Notes under the pieces: model-generated
The model's database searches: none
What the model saw: only the letters and a program-made list of their open reading frames with translations
Told to the model about the DNA's origin: nothing
Assembly (NCBI GenBank): GCA_009699915.1
Contig: WLNG01000015.1
Coordinates: forward strand, 1-13,256
Length of the DNA stretch: 13,256 nucleotides
Source of the DNA: Actinomycetota bacterium
GTDB taxonomy: Bacteria; Actinomycetota; Thermoleophilia; Solirubrobacterales; Solirubrobacteraceae
Direction: 5' to 3'
In this document: positions 2,972-13,256 of the stretch, one piece after another
How the letters are laid out: each line of letters begins with the position of its first letter
Position numbering within the stretch: the first letter of the stretch is position 1
Program-made: the position numbers and the translations under genes

Positions 2972-3058
2972 CCACCGCCCACGGCCGGTCCGTTGAGCGC
3001 GCCGACGAGCGGCTTGGGGAAGGCGGAGAGCGTCTCGAACCACGTCAGCGCGTCGGCC
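2794..3058 (-). pseudogene. Crotonase (enoyl-CoA hydratase/isomerase) remnant, internally deleted and 5'-truncated
   Basis: A broken second copy of the gene at 9595-10278. It keeps the C-terminal end (IVEREELL to the stop, with IIDLG instead of IIELG) joined directly to the GPAVGGGAAI segment. Between them 195 bp (65 codons) are missing compared with the intact gene. The deletion ends fall on two copies of GATCGCCGCG (9763-9772 and 9958-9967 in the intact gene), leaving one copy at 2962-2971. The deletion is in frame but removes the residues after the glycine-rich oxyanion segment, including the PEL glutamate, so no activity is expected. The upstream half of the gene is absent: at about 3051-3058 it switches to the nrdJ tail through a short CGGCC microhomology. 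There is no start codon in context. Confidence 0.9.
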
Positions 3059-3147
3059 CGGCCTGCAACCAGTGCGGCGGCACCATGCAGCGCACCGGCG
3101 CTTGCTACACCTGCACCAGCTGCGGGAACAACACCGGCTGCGGCTGA
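3051..3147 (+). pseudogene. Second copy of the nrdJ 3' end (97 bp)
   Basis: Encodes the zinc-ribbon tail of NrdJ up to and including its stop codon, with one Ile-to-Thr change in the tail (1160 T versus 3083 C). It is separated from nrdJ by the 1.9-kb insertion. It is followed by a terminator, whereas the functional nrdJ copy is not, so this probably marks the original 3' flank of nrdJ. A GTG-initiated open frame (2851-3147) runs through the antisense crotonase remnant into this tail. It has no visible ribosome-binding site, and I do not call it a gene. Confidence 0.88.
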
Positions 3148-3179
3148 GTGCTGACCTTCACCACGTCGTCCTGAAGGAC

Positions 3180-3207
3180 CGAAAGCCCCGCTCCGGCGGG
3201 GCTTTCG
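3180..3207 (+). terminator. Rho-independent-type terminator hairpin, probably the original nrdJ terminator
   Basis: Perfect 11-bp stem CGAAAGCCCCG / CGGGGCTTTCG around a CTCCGG loop, 32 nt after the duplicated nrdJ stop. There is no long U-tract beyond the T-run inside the stem, which is common in high-GC actinobacteria. It now ends transcription of the nrdJ-propeller A unit. Confidence 0.8.
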
Positions 3208-3248
3208 CGTTCGCTCGACGCTTGTCGTAGCGGTGCGCCGACTGAGAG

Positions 3249-3264
3249 GTGGGGCTGCCCCTAC
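3249..3264. promoter_or_regulatory. 16-bp GTGGGG...CCCCTAC dyad upstream of propeller B (putative operator)
   Basis: Imperfect dyad GTGGGGCTGCCCCTAC with a 6-bp stem including one G-T pair. Its last base is 43 nt before the propeller B ATG. A related 16-mer, GTGGGGGAACCCCCAC, ends exactly 43 nt before the propeller C ATG; 12 of 16 positions agree. No such site stands before the regulator, ohr or propeller D genes. The 159-bp gap 3148-3306 holds only the terminator, this dyad and the -10 box. Confidence 0.6.
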
Positions 3265-3294
3265 GTTTGCCCGTGAGCGTCGGAAGGCTCCGCT

Positions 3295-3300
3295 TACCGT
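3295..3300 (+). promoter_or_regulatory. -10 box TACCGT of a probable leaderless promoter for propeller B
   Basis: TANNNT hexamer within CCGCTTACCGT, followed by 6 nt and the ATG, so transcription would start at or next to the start codon. Propeller C has the closely similar CCGCTTATCCT at the same place. No convincing -35 is seen, consistent with an activator-dependent promoter. Confidence 0.6.
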
Positions 3301-3306
3301 TGGCGC

Positions 3307-5247
3307 ATGCGCCGCCTCGTCCGTCTCGTAGTCACCTCCACCGTCGTGCTCGCGGGCCTCCTGCCGCTCGCGTCAGTCGCGACGGCAGCCGTCCCGGTCA
3401 ACACCGTCGCGCCCTCGATCTCGGGCACGCCCGACGTCGGCCGGACCCTCACCGCCAACAACGGCACGTGGACGGACTCTCCGACGGGCTTCACCTACCA
3501 GTGGGAGAGCTGCACGGAGGCCTGGACCGCGTTGTCCAGCCCGACGGGCGCCGACAGCACCTCATGGTTCGATGTCGCCTACGGCGGGACAGCGGGGTCC
3601 GAGCTGTACGTCGCGGTCGGCGTGGGTTCCTCCTCCGGCGGCCGGATCATCACCAGCCCGGACGGCGTGACCTGGACGGCCCGGCAGGACCCGGGTCCCG
3701 ACAGCCTGAAGGAGTGGCGTGCCGTCGCCTACGGAGCGGGCCGGTTCGTCGCGGTCGGCGACTACGGCGGGTCGGGGACCGAGCGGGTCATGACCAGCAC
3801 CGACGGCATCAATTGGTCGTACGCGACCAGCGTCCCCACGACCACGACGTGGCAGAGCCTCGCGTTCGGTGGCGGCAAGTTCGTCGCGACGGCTTACTCC
3901 GGCACGGTGATGACGAGCTCGGATGGCCTCAGCTGGACGATCGCGTCGAGCACGCTCGACACCGCGCCGAAGGCGGTTGCGTACGGCAATGGACGGTTCG
4001 TCGTCGTCACGAACGACAAGGCGTACTACAGCGCCGACGGGGACACGTTCACCGCGACGACCACGGTCGGCAGCGGCAAGTACTGGCGCGACGTCACGTA
4101 CGGAGCAGGCACCTGGGTGGCGGTCGGCACGACCGGCTTCTCCAGCGCGAACAGCACCGCGATGGTGAGCACCGACAACGGATCCACCTGGACCGCGGCA
4201 ACCATCCCGAGCGTCGTGTGGTGGGGCGTCGCCTACGGTGACGGCCAGTTCGTCGCCGTGGGAAACGGTGCAAATTCGATCGCCACGAGCGCGGACGGCA
4301 CCACCTGGACGGCGCAGACGACGCCGAACCTCGGCTCGTACTCGGTCGCGATCGGCGCCGGCACGACGGTCGCCGTCGGTGATCCGACCGGCGGCGCGGC
4401 GGGGGCGATCGCGACCATCGAGGTGACCTGCACCGACATCGGCGGGGCGACGAATGCCACCTACCAACTGCAGGCAGGCGACCAAGGCAAGCAGATCAAG
4501 GTCAAGGTCACCGCGACGAACGGGAGCGGCTCGGCCAATGCCACCAGCGGAGCGACGGAGGCCGTCGGCGCCGAGCCCAGCCCCTACGCGCCCGTCAATA
4601 CCGCGCTGCCGACCCTGTCCGGCCTTGCCGAGGTCGACAAGACGCTCACGGCCGACCCGGGCACCTGGAACGCCTATCCGGAGGCGATCACTTACACCTA
4701 CACGTGGCAGCGCTGCGACGACGATCAGGGCAACGGCTGCGTCGACATCTCAGGTGCCGACGGATCGACCTATGTCACCGGTAGTGCCGACGTCGGCAAG
4801 TACATCCGCTCCAAGGTGACGGCCACCAACGACTCGGGCAGCGGGTCGGCGTTCAGCGACTCCGTCGGGCCCATCACGAAGGCCATTACGCCTGAGGAGC
4901 CGGGCGGTGGAACCCCGTCGAACACATTCACGCTGCGTACGCCGCTGCTCATAGGCGGAGGCATCCGCACGCTGGTTCGCGTCCCGGGCGCGGGCGTCGT
5001 CCGGCAGAACGCCACGTTCCGTTCGCGCGGCAAGACCCGCCAGGCATGCGTCGCCGGCTCCCTGAAGGTCGCGAAGACGGGGACCTACCGCCTCCGGTGC
5101 CGCCTCTCGGCAGCGGTAATGAACGCGCGGCGCAGCGGCCCAGTGCGCGTCACGCTGCGCACCACGTACACGCCGACCGGCGGCACCGCACGGGTGGTCG
5201 TCCGCACCGTTGTGCTCTCGAGCCTCAAGCCCCGCTTCACCGGGTGA
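3307..5247 (+). CDS. Secreted protein: Ig-like domain with inserted seven-bladed propeller, second Ig-like domain, shared C-terminal domain (propeller B)
   Basis: A 646-residue exported protein. Residues 1-28 are a signal peptide (RRLVRL, hydrophobic core, ATAA). Residues 29-69 are the first half of an actinobacterial Ig-like domain (VNTVAPSISGTPDVGRTLTA, then GFTYQWESC69). Residues about 72-372 hold seven BNR/Asp-box-like repeats, each with (V/L)AYGxGxFVAVG and then SxDGxTWT. The motif split between WTAL at the start and GAIATIEV at the end suggests a ring closed by N- and C-terminal strands. Residues 375-420 are the second half of the Ig-like domain (TC375TDIGGATNATY, then VKVTATNGSGS). Residues about 430-530 are an uninterrupted Ig-like domain of the same kind, with Cys470 and Cys478 only seven residues apart. 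Residues about 541-646 are the shared C-terminal domain with Cys581 and Cys598. No LPXTG motif or C-terminal membrane helix is seen. Function unknown; a surface or secreted binding protein is plausible. Confidence 0.88.
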   Translation: MRRLVRLVVTSTVVLAGLLPLASVATAAVPVNTVAPSISGTPDVGRTLTANNGTWTDSPTGFTYQWESCTEAWTALSSPTGADSTSWFDVAYGGTAGSELYVAVGVGSSSGGRIITSPDGVTWTARQDPGPDSLKEWRAVAYGAGRFVAVGDYGGSGTERVMTSTDGINWSYATSVPTTTTWQSLAFGGGKFVATAYSGTVMTSSDGLSWTIASSTLDTAPKAVAYGNGRFVVVTNDKAYYSADGDTFTATTTVGSGKYWRDVTYGAGTWVAVGTTGFSSANSTAMVSTDNGSTWTAATIPSVVWWGVAYGDGQFVAVGNGANSIATSADGTTWTAQTTPNLGSYSVAIGAGTTVAVGDPTGGAAGAIATIEVTCTDIGGATNATYQLQAGDQGKQIKVKVTATNGSGSANATSGATEAVGAEPSPYAPVNTALPTLSGLAEVDKTLTADPGTWNAYPEAITYTYTWQRCDDDQGNGCVDISGADGSTYVTGSADVGKYIRSKVTATNDSGSGSAFSDSVGPITKAITPEEPGGGTPSNTFTLRTPLLIGGGIRTLVRVPGAGVVRQNATFRSRGKTRQACVAGSLKVAKTGTYRLRCRLSAAVMNARRSGPVRVTLRTTYTPTGGTARVVVRTVVLSSLKPRFTG

Positions 5248-5266
5248 TCTGACACGTCCCGGACGT

Positions 5267-5272
5267 TAGGCT
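5267..5272 (+). promoter_or_regulatory. -10 box TAGGCT before the response regulator (probable leaderless start)
   Basis: TANNNT followed by exactly 6 nt and the ATG at 5279, in the 31-bp gap after propeller B. The G/C-run dyad found before B and C is absent here. Partial transcription from the B promoter is also possible because no terminator stands between them. Confidence 0.5.
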
Positions 5273-5278
5273 GACCGC

Positions 5279-5989
5279 ATGTCGATGGCGTCGCTTGACG
5301 AGGAGAACGACGCCGCAACGCACTCCCGGTCGGTGCTCGTCGTCGAGGACGAGCCACTCCTGCGCGAACTGATCGGGGCTGCGCTCGAGGCGCACGGATT
5401 CGAGGTCGTCACGGCCGGGTCCGCGTCGGACGCCGTGCGCGCCTTCCGCGCCGTCGACCCGGACGGCGTCGTGATGGACGTCGACCTGGGGCTGGGCCCG
5501 AACGGCTTCGACGTCGCCGAGCGCTTCGTGCAGGCAGGGACCGGCGTCGCGATCGTCTTCCTCACCAATCTGCCCGATCCCCGCTTCGCGGGGCGCGGCC
5601 CGGATGACGTGCCCGCTGGAATCGCATACCTGCGTAAGGGCGCCGTGCATGACGTCGGCGCACTCGTCGCGACGCTCGACGCCGCAATGCGGGGGGACGT
5701 CGCGACGGAGATGCGGCACGACCGCGACGCGAGCCGCCCGCTCGCCGATCTGACGCGTCATCAGGTGGAGGCGCTGCGGCTCGTGGCGCTCGGGCGCACG
5801 AATGCGCAGATCGCGCAGGTGCGAGGCACGACCGAGAAGGCCGTCGAGCGCGTCGTGGCGCGGGCGTTTGCCGCGGCCGGGGTGAGCGCACAGGCGGCGA
5901 GCAACACCCGTGTCGATGCCGCGCGCCGCTTCATCCACCTCAGCGGCCATCCGATGGTGAACGCGGACGACCTCGGGCCGGGCCGGTGA
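5279..5989 (+). CDS. Two-component response regulator, receiver plus LuxR-type HTH
   Basis: A 236-residue cytoplasmic transcription regulator. The receiver domain (about 18-137) shows the acidic pair E23-D24, the phosphoacceptor Asp67 in VVMDVDLG, Thr96 in FLTNL, and Lys120 in YLRKG, so the full phosphorylation set is present. The HTH region (about 155-205) reads LTRHQVEALRLVALGRTNAQ, then IAQ...TTEKAVERVVARAFAAAGV, the LuxR/NarL-type recognition pattern, followed by a C-terminal tail of about 30 residues. The ATG at 5279 is preferred because of the -10 box 7 nt upstream; the ATG at 5285 is an in-frame alternative. Its stop overlaps the start of the kinase gene (GTGA), so the two are translationally coupled and form one signalling pair. 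Likely targets, by position only, are the flanking propeller genes B and C. Confidence 0.9.
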   Translation: MSMASLDEENDAATHSRSVLVVEDEPLLRELIGAALEAHGFEVVTAGSASDAVRAFRAVDPDGVVMDVDLGLGPNGFDVAERFVQAGTGVAIVFLTNLPDPRFAGRGPDDVPAGIAYLRKGAVHDVGALVATLDAAMRGDVATEMRHDRDASRPLADLTRHQVEALRLVALGRTNAQIAQVRGTTEKAVERVVARAFAAAGVSAQAASNTRVDAARRFIHLSGHPMVNADDLGPGR

Positions 5990-7782
5990 GGCCGGTGGAG
6001 CGGATCGGCGCCGTCCTGGTGGCGAGCGTGGCCCGAGTTCGCGAGGCGGCGCTGCCGCTCGGATCAGCCGGCGCCTTCTCGTGGCCGGTCATCGCGATCT
6101 ACTGCCCGCTCGGGGTGCTCATCCAAGCGCCCGCGAACGCCTCGATCTTCGGCGGCCAGCTTCACGCGTGGATCCTGGCGTCGGCGGCCGGCATGGCAGT
6201 CCTCGCCGCCGTGCTGGCCGCGGCGCGCGCACTCGTCTGCCGCCGCGCCGGCCCCGGCCCCGCCTGCGTGCTCGTCTCCTACGGCATCGCCGCGCTCGCC
6301 CAGACGGCGACGTTCGGGTGGATGACAGTCTTGCTCGACGTCGCGGGCTCGCCGCTCCTGAGCTTCCGTCTCATGGGGGTCTTCTTGCAGATTCCGCTGC
6401 TCACGGTGACTGGATACGCGGTCGCGCGGCACGACGCCCATCGCCGCGTCATGGCCAAGCTGGAGCGCACGCGGGACCGGCTCCTGGAGGTCGAGGCGAC
6501 GCTCGACGCAGAACTCGATCGCGCCGAGACGGCTCTCGTCGATGCCCTGCATGCGTCTCTCGAGCCTGCCGTCGCATCCCTGGAGGACGCGCTCGCCGAC
6601 GCCGAAGCGGGGCGCGAACCGGCCACGGTGATCCACGCGATCGACGCGCTCGTCGAGGAGCAGGTCCGCCCGCTGACGGACCGCCTCGTCGCCGACGCGC
6701 AGGAGCGCGCACCCTTCGAGACCGTCGCCGCGAGCCGCACCCGGTCCCGCACGCGGGTGCCGTTGCCGGCGGCGTTCCGCGTCGGTGATGCGCTCCGGCC
6801 GGGGATCGCCGCATTCGTGTTGCTGCTCGCGGCGGTGCCGACCGCCGTCCGTGCGCTCGAGCCGTGGAGCGTGCTGCTCTATCTAGCGGCCTTCTCCCTT
6901 TCATCCTGGACGCTGCTGGAGCTCGCCAGGCTCACCCTGGGCCGCGCACGAGTGTGGACGGTGCTGGGCGCGCCCGCAGTCGTCTGTCTCTACCCGGCGG
7001 TCGGCGTAGCGGCCTACTGGCTCGTCGGCGTCGCCGGGATCGCGCGGCCCGGGGGCATCACCGTCGGGATCGCCGGGGTGTGGGCGGTGCTCGGCCTCAC
7101 GCTGACCTCAGACCTGCTCGTCGAGACGTATCGCGTGCGCAGCGAGCGTGAGCTGGAGCGGGCGACACGGCGCCTTGAGCGGGTGGTCGCGCTGATCCGC
7201 CGCCGGGAGCGTCTGGTCAAGCGCCGTCTGGCGTTCGTCGTCCATGGAGCGCTGCAGGGCGCGCTCCATGCCGCCGCGCTGCGCATCGTCGAGGCGCAGG
7301 CGATCACGGAGCAGCTCGGCCTGGAGATCCGACGCGACATCGCAGCCGCCCTCTCTCAGATCAGTCGTGGGCGGGAACCGGGAGCCTCCCTGCGCACGCC
7401 GACGACGATCGATGAGCTCGCATCGGTATGGGGAGACCACCGGCATCTGCGCGTGCAGATCTCTCCGACGGCGCGCGAGAGGCTCGTTCAGGCCCCCGAC
7501 GTCGACGAGGCGGTCGCCGAGGTGATCCGCGAAGCTGTCAACAACGCCTTCCGGCACGGAGCGGCGCGCTCCATCGAGCTCGAGGTGACGAGCGGTGACG
7601 GCGACATCGCCATTGCCGTCCACGACGATGGCCGCGGCCATCCCGGCGATGGCCGGCGAGGCTTCGGCAGTCGCCTCTTCGACGATCTCTGTCGGACTTG
7701 GACGGTCGACACCGGCAGCGATGGGACGCGCTTCCATGGACTCGTCGCGCTGGCAGGTCAGCGCTCCCTGGGCCCCGTCTGA
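5986..7782 (+). CDS. Membrane sensor histidine kinase with tandem 4TM-DHp modules
   Basis: A 598-residue kinase starting at a GTG within the 4-bp overlap with the regulator; a GTG at 5995 is an in-frame alternative. Hydrophobic segments lie at about 30-48, 60-84, 93-118 and 125-147, then a cytoplasmic helical region (about 155-245), then four more at about 272-290, 294-314, 323-351 and 357-378. A dimerisation helix follows with His420 in FVVHGALQGAL (HisKA_3-like), and then an HATPase domain: N-box EVIREAVNNAFRHG with Glu516 and Asn519/520, G1 box DDGRG at 547-551, and GFG at 559-561. The first helical region aligns with the second without gaps from LER (159 and 390) to a histidine (189 and 420), so the N-terminal half looks like a duplicated sensor-DHp module without its own ATPase. 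No periplasmic ligand domain is seen; sensing is probably within the membrane. The stop is followed by an 87-bp gap with the dyad before propeller C. Confidence 0.85.
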   Translation: MRPVERIGAVLVASVARVREAALPLGSAGAFSWPVIAIYCPLGVLIQAPANASIFGGQLHAWILASAAGMAVLAAVLAAARALVCRRAGPGPACVLVSYGIAALAQTATFGWMTVLLDVAGSPLLSFRLMGVFLQIPLLTVTGYAVARHDAHRRVMAKLERTRDRLLEVEATLDAELDRAETALVDALHASLEPAVASLEDALADAEAGREPATVIHAIDALVEEQVRPLTDRLVADAQERAPFETVAASRTRSRTRVPLPAAFRVGDALRPGIAAFVLLLAAVPTAVRALEPWSVLLYLAAFSLSSWTLLELARLTLGRARVWTVLGAPAVVCLYPAVGVAAYWLVGVAGIARPGGITVGIAGVWAVLGLTLTSDLLVETYRVRSERELERATRRLERVVALIRRRERLVKRRLAFVVHGALQGALHAAALRIVEAQAITEQLGLEIRRDIAAALSQISRGREPGASLRTPTTIDELASVWGDHRHLRVQISPTARERLVQAPDVDEAVAEVIREAVNNAFRHGAARSIELEVTSGDGDIAIAVHDDGRGHPGDGRRGFGSRLFDDLCRTWTVDTGSDGTRFHGLVALAGQRSLGPV

Positions 7783-7804
7783 ACCTCGAGAATCGGGTCC
7801 GCAA

Positions 7805-7832
7805 GGGATGCGTGGGGGAACCCCCACATCCC
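7805..7832. promoter_or_regulatory. Long dyad containing the 16-bp GTGGGGGAACCCCCAC element upstream of propeller C
   Basis: The core 7812-7827 is a perfect 7-bp inverted repeat around AA. Outer arms GGGAT (7805-7809) and ATCCC (7828-7832) extend it to 12 pairs with a 2-nt bulge. The core ends 43 nt before the propeller C ATG, the same spacing as the related element at 3249-3264. The strong hairpin could also end transcription of the kinase gene, but no T-tract follows. Both roles are possible. Confidence 0.65.
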
Positions 7833-7857
7833 GACGTGCGCGCCCGTCGGCGCCGCT

Positions 7858-7863
7858 TATCCT
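7858..7863 (+). promoter_or_regulatory. -10 box TATCCT of a probable leaderless promoter for propeller C
   Basis: TANNNT in CCGCTTATCCT, with 6 nt to the ATG at 7870 and 30 nt from the 16-bp dyad. Both spacings are identical to those before propeller B. No Shine-Dalgarno precedes the ATG. Confidence 0.62.
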
Positions 7864-7869
7864 CGACAC

Positions 7870-9582
7870 ATGCAGCGCGGAACACATCTGTCGCGAACCC
7901 GTCTCCTGCTCGCCGTCGCGAGCGTCGCCGCGTGCATCGCAGCGATCACCCCAGTCGCCTTCGGCGGTTCGGCGCCCGTGAACACGGCCCCACCGACCGT
8001 GTCCGGCACGGCGAAGGTCGGGTCGAAGCTCACCGCCGACCCCGGCACCTGGAGCGGCTCCCCGACCGGCTTCGCCTACCAGTGGCAGCGGTGCGAGTCG
8101 ACCGGCTCGACTCCGGCCGGTGAGAGCTGGGCGCTGCAGAACGCCACGGTCAACAATCCCATCCTCTCGATCGTCTGGGGCGGACCCGCTGGGGCCGAGA
8201 CGTTCGTCGCGACCGTCGAGGACATCGACGGATCCAACTCCATCCTGACCAGCCCTGACGGAGTCACCTGGACCAAGCGCACCGCTCCCCGCGACACCTA
8301 CGTCTCCGTCGCCTGGGGCGGGCCGGCGGGCGACAGGAAGTTCGTCGCCGTCAACCCCCTCTATGTGGCGACCAGTCCTGACGGGATCACCTGGACCGAA
8401 CAGGCCGCACCCTCCACCCACTTTTGGACGGCCGTCACCTGGGGCGGCCCCACCGGAGACGAGAAGTTCGTCGCCGTCTCGCGGCAGGACCAGGTGGTCA
8501 TGACCAGCCCCGACGGAATCACCTGGACCGAGCACGCGGCGGCGGCCGACGGCTTCTGGGGAGCGGTGGCCTGGGGCGGCCCGCCCGGGCAGGAGAAGTT
8601 CGTCGCAATCGACACGAAAGAGTTTGGCGCTGCCACTGAAGTGATGACGAGCCCCGACGGCGTCGCATGGACGGCCCAGACGGCGCCTGACGGGCGCTGG
8701 AAGTCCGTGACCTGGGGCGGCCCCGCCGGGGGCGAGAAATTCGTCGCCGTCGGCATCGCGGCACTGATGACCAGCCCTGATGGGATCACCTGGACTGCAC
8801 AGCCCGCCGCCGGCACTCGCGACTGGCGAGGTGTCACATGGGGCGGGGAGGCCGGTGACAAGAAGTTCGTCGTCGTCTCTCGGAACAGCACTGAGCCGGT
8901 GGAGGGCGGCGTGATCACCAGTCCGGATGGCGTGACCTGGACCGACCGGACCTCGGCTGCACAGAACTACTGGGTGGCCGTCGCCTGGGGCGGAGCTCAA
9001 GGTCAGGAGACATTCGTCGCGGTGGCCGCGGGCGGTACGGGACCTGATGTCAACGTGTTCTCCCGCGTGATGACCGGCGCCGCGCCGTCGCTCACCTGCA
9101 CCGACATCTCCGGTGCGACCGCCGAGACCTACACCCTCACCAGTGCCGATGCGGGCAAGGTGCTCCGGGTCAAGGTGACGGCGACGAACGGCTCCGGCTC
9201 GGCCAGTGCCACCAGCCGTCCGACGGCGATCGTCGCCGCAGGGTCATCGGGCGGGATCACCGTCGGAGCGCCGCAGGTGCGCGGGTCCACAATCCGCACG
9301 CTCGTGCGCGTGCGCGGGGCGGGTCGCGTCACTCAGGCGGGGACCTTCCGTTCCGGCTCCCGGGCCAAGGTGGCCTGCCGCGCGACGCCGGTCAGTGCCA
9401 AGAAGGCCGGCACGGTGCTCCTGCGGTGCGCGATCACGCAGGGCGCGCAGAGCGCTCGCACGGCGGGTCCGGTCCGCGTGAAGCTCGCCACGACATTCCG
9501 GCCCACCGGCGGGAAGGCGCGTGTCGTGACGCGGACGGTCGTCCTGCGGAGCCTGAAGCCCGCACCGGCGTTCACCGGCTGA
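7870..9582 (+). CDS. Secreted protein: Ig-like domain with inserted seven-bladed propeller and shared C-terminal domain (propeller C)
   Basis: A 570-residue exported paralogue of propeller B. Residues 1-35 are a signal peptide (LSRTR, then LLLAVASVAACIAAI). Residues 36-75 are the first half of an Ig-like domain (APVNTAPPTVSGTAKVGSKL, then GFAYQWQRC75). Residues about 85-405 hold seven repeats of V(A/T)WGGPxGxxKFVAV, six of them followed by a TSPDG(I/V)TWT strand. An unpaired SWALQNAT strand at the front and an unpaired VMTGAAPS strand at the back could close the ring. Residues 408-460 are the second half of the Ig-like domain (LTC410TDISGATAETY, then VKVTATNGSGS). Residues about 463-570 are the C-terminal domain with Cys503 and Cys520. 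It lacks the second Ig-like domain of B. The gene is convergent with the crotonase, stops 12 bp apart, with no terminator visible between them. No membrane anchor is seen, and function is unknown. Confidence 0.88.
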   Translation: MQRGTHLSRTRLLLAVASVAACIAAITPVAFGGSAPVNTAPPTVSGTAKVGSKLTADPGTWSGSPTGFAYQWQRCESTGSTPAGESWALQNATVNNPILSIVWGGPAGAETFVATVEDIDGSNSILTSPDGVTWTKRTAPRDTYVSVAWGGPAGDRKFVAVNPLYVATSPDGITWTEQAAPSTHFWTAVTWGGPTGDEKFVAVSRQDQVVMTSPDGITWTEHAAAADGFWGAVAWGGPPGQEKFVAIDTKEFGAATEVMTSPDGVAWTAQTAPDGRWKSVTWGGPAGGEKFVAVGIAALMTSPDGITWTAQPAAGTRDWRGVTWGGEAGDKKFVVVSRNSTEPVEGGVITSPDGVTWTDRTSAAQNYWVAVAWGGAQGQETFVAVAAGGTGPDVNVFSRVMTGAAPSLTCTDISGATAETYTLTSADAGKVLRVKVTATNGSGSASATSRPTAIVAAGSSGGITVGAPQVRGSTIRTLVRVRGAGRVTQAGTFRSGSRAKVACRATPVSAKKAGTVLLRCAITQGAQSARTAGPVRVKLATTFRPTGGKARVVTRTVVLRSLKPAPAFTG

Positions 9583-12327: not shown

Positions 12328-12333
12328 TAAGGT
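12328..12333 (+). promoter_or_regulatory. -10 box TAAGGT of a probable leaderless ohr promoter
   Basis: TANNNT with exactly 6 nt to the ATG at 12340. A weak -35 candidate, TTGTGT, lies at 12306-12311 with a 16-nt spacer. There is no Shine-Dalgarno before the ATG. Confidence 0.6.
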
Positions 12334-12339
12334 CGCCGC

Positions 12340-12756
12340 ATGAACCCGATCTACACCACCTCCGCAACGGTTTCCGGCGGCCGTGACGGCCGCGCATCGA
12401 CCCCCGACGGGCGCCTCGATATCAAGCTCGACATGCCGAAGGAGCTCGGCGGGAGCGACGGCCCGGGCACCGACCCCGAGCAGCTCTTCGCCGCCGGCTA
12501 CGCGGCGTGCTTTGAGAGCGCAGTCCGCGCTTGCGCGCGCGGCGGCGACGTGATGTTCAGCGACCTCTCGATCACGGCGGAGGTCTCGCTGCTGACCGAC
12601 GGAGCAGGGAAGTTCGGGCTCGCCGTGGCGCTCACGGGGAGCTCGGATGATCTCGCGGAGGAGCAGCTCGCCGCGCTTATGCGCGAGGCACACGACGTCT
12701 GCCCGTACTCGCACGCGACGCGCGGGAACATCACCGTGACACTCGCGCCTGCCTGA
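12340..12756 (+). CDS. ohr: Organic hydroperoxide resistance protein (Ohr, OsmC/Ohr family)
   Basis: A 138-residue cytoplasmic thiol peroxidase that reduces organic and fatty-acid hydroperoxides; in this family the electrons usually come through lipoylated proteins. Seen: the N-terminal YTTSATVSGGRDGRA with Arg15/Arg18; the active-site segment DPEQLFAAGYAACF with Glu47 and the reactive Cys57; and the resolving Cys121 in VCPYSHATRGN, which distinguishes Ohr from OsmC. Length is typical. It is transcribed away from the monooxygenase operon across a shared control region, which could link peroxide defence to flavoenzyme activity, since uncoupled BVMOs can release hydrogen peroxide. That link is inference. 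No clear terminator follows before propeller D. Confidence 0.93.
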   Translation: MNPIYTTSATVSGGRDGRASTPDGRLDIKLDMPKELGGSDGPGTDPEQLFAAGYAACFESAVRACARGGDVMFSDLSITAEVSLLTDGAGKFGLAVALTGSSDDLAEEQLAALMREAHDVCPYSHATRGNITVTLAPA

Positions 12757-12788
12757 GCGCGCGCGGCACGGGGGAGCCGGCGAGTGCG

Positions 12789-12815
12789 GCCGCGGATGCG
12801 GGTATGGTCCGCGGC
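12789..12815. promoter_or_regulatory. 8-bp perfect inverted repeat spanning a -10-like TATGGT upstream of propeller D
   Basis: GCCGCGGA (12789-12796) and TCCGCGGC (12808-12815) with an 11-nt spacer. The spacer and first base of the right arm contain TATGGT (12803-12808), a TANNNT candidate. If transcription starts near 12815, the leader is about 38 nt and carries the Shine-Dalgarno. The repeat could be an operator over the promoter. No good -35 is seen. Confidence 0.4.
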
Positions 12816-12841
12816 GAGCGGTCTTTTGGCGTCATCCGAAT

Positions 12842-12846
12842 GGGAG
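12842..12846 (+). promoter_or_regulatory. Shine-Dalgarno GGGAG of propeller D
   Basis: GGGAG ends 6 nt before the ATG at 12853 and fixes that start; the ATG at 12840 is in another frame. Propeller D is the one gene here with a clear leader and ribosome-binding site, unlike its homologue propeller A. Confidence 0.65.
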
Positions 12847-12852
12847 TTGGGA

Positions 12853-13256
12853 ATGCGCGGGCGTTTGGGTGCGAAGGCTGGGCGTGGGCGTGTTCTGGCG
12901 CTGGCTGCGCTGAGTGCTTTGGTGGTGTGTGTCGCTGCCGCGCCGGCTGGTGCTGCCGTGCCGGGCCAGGTGACGGAGTTCAGCGCGGGAATCACCGCCG
13001 GCTCGAATCTCCTTGGCCTCGCAGCGGGCCCGGACGGGAATATGTGGTTCACCGTGCACAACGGGGGTCGGGTTGGCCGGATCACGCCGCTCGGTGTGGT
13101 GACGGAGTTCAGTGCGGGGATCACCGCCGACTCTCGACCCTGGGGGATCGCAGCGGGTGCGGACGGGAATCTCTGGTTTACCGAGGCCTTCGGGGGTCGG
13201 GTTGGCCGGATCACGCCGCTCGGTGTGGTGACGGAGTTCAGTGCGGGGATCACCGC
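12853..13256 (+). CDS. Secreted Vgb-like beta-propeller protein, N-terminal part (propeller D; 3' end outside window)
   Basis: Open to the window end, 134 residues visible. Residues 1-36 form a signal peptide (MRGRLGAKAGRGR, then a hydrophobic run ending APAGAA). Then come two complete blades and the start of a third with the same signature as propeller A: AAGPDGNMWFTV or AAGADGNLWFTE followed by GRVGRITPLGVV. Homology with propeller A begins in the signal-peptide core (LALAALSAL versus LALAVLSSF) and continues through the blades, with the same G/T-rich third positions. This is the more complete 5' form of the family: promoter candidate, leader and Shine-Dalgarno are all present. Domains after the propeller cannot be seen. 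Confidence 0.85.
   Translation, partial: MRGRLGAKAGRGRVLALAALSALVVCVAAAPAGAAVPGQVTEFSAGITAGSNLLGLAAGPDGNMWFTVHNGGRVGRITPLGVVTEFSAGITADSRPWGIAAGADGNLWFTEAFGGRVGRITPLGVVTEFSAGIT

Follow-up and report, generated by a model that had tools for sequence, protein, structure and literature searches.

A candidate operator shared by two propeller genes that flank a two-component pair in a Solirubrobacteraceae genome

The locus

A two-component pair and two predicted secreted propeller proteins, here called B and C, lie side by side on contig WLNG01000015.1 of the Actinomycetota assembly GCA_009699915.1 (Solirubrobacteraceae), and a palindromic element, or dyad, stands in front of each propeller gene. 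The present analysis concerns these dyads and their relation to the regulator encoded between the two genes. The window is the whole stretch of DNA that was analyzed, 13,256 nucleotides (nt) of the forward strand from position 1. The genome to which it belongs is incomplete, with 1.47 Mb in 229 contigs and 61% completeness. Loci and genomes of other organisms are cited by our own L and G handles. The features at issue are the following:

3249..3264, plus strand: dyad B, predicted operator, GTGGGGCTGCCCCTAC, with the family-type core GGGGCTGCCCC
3295..3300, plus strand: TACCGT, -10 box of propeller B, with the predicted leaderless start at ATG 3307
3307..5247, plus strand: propeller B, predicted secreted, with propeller repeats, two immunoglobulin-like (Ig-like) domains and a C-terminal domain of about 105 amino acids (aa) that is common to propellers A and C
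5254..5266, plus strand: ACGTCCCGGACGT, a palindrome unlike the dyads, immediately adjacent to the regulator gene's -10; the family box is absent here (family-matrix score -6.2)
5267..5272, plus strand: TAGGCT, -10 box of the regulator gene, 6 nt before ATG 5279
5279..5989, plus strand: NarL/FixJ-type response regulator (receiver and LuxR-like helix-turn-helix)
5986..7782, plus strand: membrane histidine kinase with the H-box VVHGALQ, its start overlapping the regulator stop
7812..7827, plus strand: dyad C, predicted operator, GTGGGGGAACCCCCAC, with the core GGGGGAACCCCC
7858..7863, plus strand: TATCCT, -10 box of propeller C, with the predicted leaderless start at ATG 7870
7870..9582, plus strand: propeller C, a predicted secreted beta-propeller inside an Ig-like domain, followed by the shared C-terminal domain

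One architecture at two promoters

The two promoters are laid out alike to the nucleotide. As the sequence-only reading of this DNA had stated, each consists of a dyad, 30 nt, a TANNNT box, 6 nt and an ATG, with CCGCTTA common to both. Dyad C is a perfect palindrome (7-2-7) and dyad B has one mismatched pair. A genome search with the bare pattern GTGGGGN4CCCYAC gave a divided answer: in the host genome it finds only two places, which are B and C, but over 17 genus genomes its frequency does not exceed that of the reversed control, and it was rejected as a genome-wide signature. The composite site (dyad, 30 nt, TANNNT, 6 nt and ATG, with up to three mismatches) has only two exact matches in the 17 genomes, again B and C; the eight other places carry two or three mismatches and are no more numerous than in the reversed control.

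A comparison of 50 promoters from the host genome and a second genus member (G009), aligned on the -10, places this likeness on a scale. B and C agree at 33 of 55 positions, which ranks first among 1,225 promoter pairs (next 28; mean 16.3, standard deviation 3.6). Their likeness is strongest in the dyad and in CCGCT. Specifically, the dyad block is identical at 12 of 16 positions, unmatched by any other pair at that position, and the 25-nt spacer agrees at 13 of 25, a level reached by 28 of the 1,225 pairs. Fifteen other frames in genus loci carry the shared C-terminal domain; four of them have a normally placed TANNNT promoter, and the dyad is absent from all four.

The -10 element itself is ordinary. 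In a 151-kb sample of the host genome, 11 of 72 intergenic starts have a TANNNT beginning at -12 and three or fewer have it at any other single position, and in a 340-kb sample of G009 it starts at -12 in 13 of 153 starts and at -13 in 13 of 153. TANNNT is commoner 6-7 nt before the start than elsewhere, as in a leaderless-type promoter, and no -35 consensus stands out in the promoters sampled. The window's ohr gene, for an Ohr-type peroxiredoxin, has TAAGGT at 12328 and with it a leaderless-type promoter like those of B and C. The sequence-only reading had found its element missing before the regulator gene and ohr; this holds for the dyad, but TANNNT with 6 nt is present at both genes. TANNNT with 6 nt was rejected as a special feature, being the ordinary leaderless promoter here. 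Since this spacing and the missing -35 are generic in the genus, they say nothing about this particular regulator, and the argument that had been drawn from them in its favor falls away. The palindrome ACGTCCCGGACGT at the regulator's own promoter is unlike the B/C dyad and was not seen upstream of the regulator gene of the genus member G001.

A palindrome in front of related regulators

Relatives of the regulator number 517 at E <= 0.001 among the candidates scored. Named genomes contain 62 loci that encode such relatives, many of them in freshwater or lake Actinomycetota by title; metagenome-assembled genomes labeled Rhodoluna (L162 and L165) are among the carriers of the pair. By tblastn, 38 of the 62 have a kinase match; when the kinase itself was used as query in the named genomes, no relative was found. 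The window's own dyad, searched as GTRGGGN4CCCYAC in the 62 loci, gave no match. A repeated palindrome emerged on reading the sequence upstream of the relatives' regulator genes, and it was ranked against 1,280 palindromic layouts in 38 non-redundant regulator-upstream regions of up to 150 nt, the window excluded. GGG-N-TA-N-CCC is the most enriched of all layouts, present in 8 of the 38 regions against 0.119 expected (p 9e-13), and the next-ranked layout has p 2e-4. A layout with a central dinucleotide was needed to bring out this family box. A plain arm-gap-arm palindrome scan of 11,520 tests ranked GGGT-N-ACCC first (p 8e-6), which is not significant after correction, and that candidate was dropped. 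Near-identical regions were removed (L152, L162, L165 and L180 from the 38 regions, L158 from later counts), and the upstream sets exclude L159, L181, L186, L188, L189 and L195, which have little or no upstream sequence.

The box is enriched by position only, and not in overall number. The 49 family loci span 518 kb and contain 19 boxes, 11 of which are found no more than 111 nt ahead of the regulator match; the near-identical L157 and L158 account for two of these 11. A first hold-out has the box upstream of the regulator in two of nine loci and a second in 4 of 26, where the four boxes present in 85 kb are all located 56-118 nt ahead of a regulator match (3 of 10 among plus-oriented loci, by script; 1 of 16 among minus-oriented loci, L270, by eye). 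In one genome, G297, five of its eight GGGGNTANCCCC sites fall in two of its three regulator loci. Some boxes come in pairs, 30-31 base pairs (bp) apart in L237 (4427/4458), L242 (888/919) and L183 (7933/7963) and 24 apart in L173 (600/624); a spacing of about three helical turns suggests two dimers side by side.

Distance from the -10 gives a second criterion of position. Of 26 box orientations, 9 have a TANNNT at 38-44 nt, and each of the other 6-nt bins from 20 to 139 holds two or fewer. This count takes 23 of the 28 strict boxes (L158 aside) in their orientation toward a secreted gene, kinase or regulator, and reads three of the 23 both ways; it omits five boxes that lie inside genes or not before the pair or a secreted gene (L155, L172, L185, L189 and L183 at 10694). 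For any GGG-N4-CCC before leaderless-type promoters, 10 of 21 pairs in family loci lie at 35-44 nt, compared with one of seven in genus control loci; these 10 pairs represent eight promoters, some boxes counting twice through overlapping registers. In L179, where the regulator and kinase genes are convergent, a separate box precedes each of them at 39.5. In L144 a single box separates two divergent genes, lying at 39.5 for the regulator and at 42.5 for a predicted secreted protein that contains an F5/8-type-C domain. In the window, the dyad axis is 38.5 nt before TANNNT at both B and C, inside the range of 37.5-42.5. As a separate observation, a longer palindrome, CAC-N-GGG-N-TGACCCC-GTG, lies 38.5 nt before the TANNNT of a 105-aa gene in L150 (249) and L155 (7553), and this gene stands upstream of the regulator in these two uncultured actinobacteria.

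The pair and its boxes also keep particular company. Secreted-like genes make up 26 of 62 neighbors of the pair, against 29 of 236 among the remaining genes in these loci (Fisher p 7e-7); the predictor is crude, with visible false positives in L153, L164 and L181, and two of the 26 are the window's own propellers. A Pfam scan of 20 secreted-like or boxed neighbors found propellers above the cut-off in L242 and L184 and below it in L157 and L170. The other domains were SWM, FN3, He_PIG, Big_3_5 Ig repeats, leucine-rich repeats, List_Bact/InlB-type repeats, pentapeptide/collagen and OmpA, and three neighbors had no Pfam match. In L147 a box lies 38.5 nt before the TANNNT of an SWM protein. Two boxes precede a pentapeptide/collagen protein convergent with the kinase in L237, and in L242 the order is regulator, kinase, two boxes (one overlapping the kinase end) and propeller; no TANNNT lies downstream of the boxes in L237 and L242. 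The closest parallel to the window is L265, where kinase and regulator are followed by GTGGGGATTCCCC, 38.5 nt, TATGGT, 7 nt and the ATG of a predicted secreted propeller that is 40% identical to that of L242.

The window dyads against the family box

A matrix built from 23 boxes of other genomes was used to score 124 candidate genus promoters, the window's included, at 37.5-42.5 nt from the -10. Promoter C ranks first (9.5) and promoter B second (6.9), and the third scores 4.7. An earlier matrix from 10 boxes, applied to all window positions and ignoring promoters, placed C 2nd and B 6th of 13,239; 8 and 51 of 137,589 positions in the own-genome sample score as high as C and B, respectively. 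Each dyad is one base from a site in another family locus: GTGGGGCTGCCCC in B compares with GTGGGGCTACCCC in L237, and GGGGGAACCCCC in C with GGGGTAACCCCC in L144. The earlier proposal that the regulator binds the dyads and controls both propellers thereby gains support of another kind: the dyads are near matches to the relatives' box at its frequent distance, while the argument from -10 and -35 fails.

Encoded proteins and surrounding genes

The regulator carries a receiver domain (PF00072, E 8e-13) whose residues D24, D67, T96 and K120, which are phosphorylation-site residues, are invariant in 32 relatives. Its GerE score of 16.1 is below the Pfam cut-off of 23.5, and GerE is present in many of the relatives in precomputed Pfam. 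A profile from the 32 relatives matches DevR, DesR and VraR across both domains, with DevR (3c3w) as the best solved relative. The best fold matches of the regulator model are NarL-type regulators, at a whole-chain template modeling (TM) score of only 0.34-0.55 by query length. The kinase has a HATPase_c domain (PF02518, E 3e-7, 31.2 bits against a cut-off of 26.4) and an H-G-x-[LIV]-Q motif at the expected place, a box that a six-frame scan also found in 40 of 82 other loci. Pfam lists no HisKA_3 at E up to 10, where HMMER filters may drop weak matches, and assigns no sensor domain. Judged by its motifs, this kinase may work like HisKA_3/HPK7 kinases while not being filed as a member.

The model of propeller C has a predicted local distance difference test (pLDDT) value of 84 and matches virginiamycin B lyase and WDR5 chains at TM scores of about 0.68-0.78 by target length. 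The model gives C a propeller fold; B is assigned one only through its likeness to C and a DUF6242 match below the cut-off. Across the propeller part, these two paralogues share 41% identity. Each appears to have its propeller inserted into an Ig-like domain, with one half of that domain on either side, and B has a second, complete Ig-like domain. The C-terminal domain common to propellers A, B and C recurs in other genus frames (L080-L088), many of them secreted-looking, and may anchor these proteins to the envelope.

Around the locus lie the remaining features of the window:

73-1224: ribonucleotide reductase, 3' end
1234-2781: propeller A, virginiamycin-B-lyase family
between propeller C and the Ohr-type peroxiredoxin: two genes, minus strand
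12340-12756: Ohr-type peroxiredoxin (ohr)

A 99-bp stretch around the reductase gene end (1128-1226) is repeated 1.9 kb downstream at 3051-3149 with 96 of 99 positions identical. The two copies bracket propeller A, as if it had arrived with a duplication of the reductase gene tail. After ohr, an open frame like propeller A, with virginiamycin-B-lyase-type repeats, occupies 12757-13256 and runs off the contig end.

Distribution within the genus

Among 17 genus genomes, many of them incomplete, a clear kinase orthologue is found only in G000 and G001, and three others give weak partial matches. In G001 the pair (regulator 76% and kinase 55% identical) immediately follows the reductase gene, A and B both being absent from the interval, and the contig ends directly after the kinase. 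In G009, which is 99% complete, the reductase gene is accompanied by a C orthologue (65% identical) and an OsmC/Ohr-like gene; no kinase relative turned up at E <= 1e-3, and the dyad is missing. In the C promoter of G009, TACGCT is followed after 7 nt by a GTG, and just upstream of this -10 lies a different, perfect palindrome, TGATTGTCAATCA (L079 7944-7956, minus strand), where a different regulator perhaps took over. G009 is the single genus member found with C and without the pair, and it is also without the dyad. Since G001 has the pair without a preceding propeller and G009 has C without the pair, pair and propellers are separable, and the earlier description of a self-contained system was too strong.

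Interpretation

The available data favor a model, to which we assign a probability of about 0.7, in which the dyads are operators of the regulator encoded between B and C, which would bind and activate both. In this model, the membrane kinase (5986-7782) would phosphorylate the regulator (5279-5989) on some signal. A regulator dimer would then bind the GGGG-N3-CCCC palindrome centered about 50 bp before the ATG and 38.5 bp before the -10, and the bound regulator would activate two leaderless promoters that have no -35. The two secreted propeller proteins would thus be made when the signal is present. With its center about 50 bp ahead of the start, the site lies outside the core promoter, a usual place for an activator. 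The DNA directly shows the elements and how they are spaced, the generic leaderless -10, and a similar box that recurs in relatives; the same site at the same distance, together with the relatives' similar sites, looks like a genuine, though still putative, switch for surface display. Binding, activation rather than repression, phosphorylation and the display of the propellers at the surface are what we infer from it.

Several results weigh against this model. At the dyads themselves, B and C each differ by one central base from the strict GGG-N-TA-N-CCC and are near matches only. A 12-of-16 match is reached by six pairs if the 16-mer may sit anywhere in register, and is not rare once the register itself is free, and a one-mismatch dyad somewhere upstream is ordinary, occurring in 23 of 50 promoters against 19.9 in shuffles. 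Seemingly unrelated promoters in L259, L165, L172 and L185 score 7.0-9.6 with the matrix at the same distance, as high as B's 6.9 (5 of 199 family-locus promoters on reading the list, in which L165 appears twice, once below 7), so that a score like B's is not proof by itself. The site in L265 has a different center (ATT) and a modest matrix rank, 13th of 199.

The family box is itself subject to similar caution. It was noticed during a search for window-like palindromes, which leaves the exhaustive ranking and the hold-outs as the only evidence unaffected by this selection. Over whole loci it is little above base-composition expectation (19 against 12.9 in the 49 loci), and the second hold-out total of four compares with about 3.4 expected in its 85 kb; two of its loci, L270 and L272, look like close orthologues and one lineage. 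The spacing of 37.5-42.5 is seen for only 9 of the 26 family box orientations. Regulator loci lack GGGGNTANCCCC in G162 (three genome sites) and G136 (one site), and it occurs nowhere in G284, G320, G001 or the host genome. The strict box is absent from 59 of 73 regulator-upstream regions (30 of 38, 7 of 9 and 22 of 26), including that of the closest relative, G001, so that autoregulation through the box is not universal; the regulator gene in the window likewise lacks one.

B and C being paralogues, part of their upstream likeness may be descent. It is unlikely, in our estimate, that this is the whole story, with duplicated genes that kept their promoter and a dyad that is the site of another regulator. 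The protein domains common to B and C and the somewhat similar 25-nt spacer speak for such a heritage, and so does the deviation of both dyads from the family box at the center. Yet dyad and CCGCT are where the likeness peaks, C's orthologue in G009 lacks the dyad at 65% protein identity, and boxes tied to the regulator family single out the B and C promoters at the family distance.

That the regulator binds the dyads and represses B and C is an unlikely variant. The computed evidence gives a site and a position, not a sign, and L183 and L173 each have a second box at 10-20 nt from TANNNT, where a repressor would sit. The B/C site, by contrast, is placed outside the core promoter, at promoters with no recognizable -35. 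A chance coincidence of GC-rich dyads appears improbable: one-mismatch dyads are common, the bare pattern does not exceed its control in the genus and the 12-of-16 match loses its rarity in a free register, but the in-register identity of B and C leads all 1,225 pairs, theirs are the only exact composite sites in 17 genomes, and a matrix from foreign genomes puts C and B first and second of 124. It is most improbable that the dyads are RNA hairpins acting as terminator or attenuator (for C, at the kinase transcript end): dyad C, 29 nt past the kinase stop codon, is able to fold on itself, but the loop is 2 nt with no T-run, the terminator was rejected when a consensus scan of 3100-8000 found no terminator-like site, and the dyads, upstream of the predicted leaderless starts, would be outside the B and C messages.

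If regulation of both propellers through the dyads is borne out, it would provide a DNA address for a widespread Actinomycetota sensor-regulator family and predict which surface proteins these hard-to-grow bacteria switch. The box would let anyone list candidate target genes.

Comparison with known systems

The window may be one instance of an undescribed Actinomycetota two-component family, a proposal whose chances we see as evenly balanced. Its members would combine a NarL-type regulator with an H-G-x-[LIV]-Q membrane kinase, and their GGG-N-TA-N-CCC-like operator would sit about 39 bp upstream of the -10, in promoters that are often leaderless. The pair would control an adjacent large secreted surface protein (propeller, Ig, FN3, SWM, leucine-rich repeat or pentapeptide/collagen), and pair, operator and surface protein would form an exchangeable surface-display cassette. 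Listings of the open literature, whose coverage leaves out most subscription papers, gave no description of the family or its box.

The promoters resemble the leaderless promoters described in Mycobacterium tuberculosis, which have a TANNNT -10 and no conserved -35 (PMC3898074); here the box lies 6-7 nt before the start. The mycobacterial promoters are general, whereas two of those in the window carry a predicted operator at a fixed distance. Among envelope regulators, LiaR, VraR and DesR share the regulator profile and fold and likewise have a membrane kinase adjoining the regulator. They differ in that the predicted operator here is another one and the neighbors are secreted repeat proteins; no partner of the liaF or des kind known from those systems is present among the window genes.

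In operator logic, the nearest known system is DosR/OsdR. For OsdR of Streptomyces, a 16-nt palindrome, AGGGCCGATCGGCCCT, was deduced from regions upstream of osdR orthologues (PMC5069765), and the DosR consensus is given as GGGACTTNNGNCCCT (PMC6448022). Like DosR/DevR of Mycobacterium and OsdR, the window's regulator is by its profile of the NarL/FixJ type, and the palindromes share outer (A)GGG and CCC(T) arms. The family box has a 4-bp center (GGG-N-TA-N-CCC), in contrast to 8-9 bp in theirs, and in this departs from the DosR/OsdR regulon sites. The kinase here has an H-G-x-[LIV]-Q box and is given no sensor domain by Pfam. Finally, DosR and OsdR serve dormancy or stress genes, whereas the genes near the box described here are the pair itself and secreted repeat proteins.

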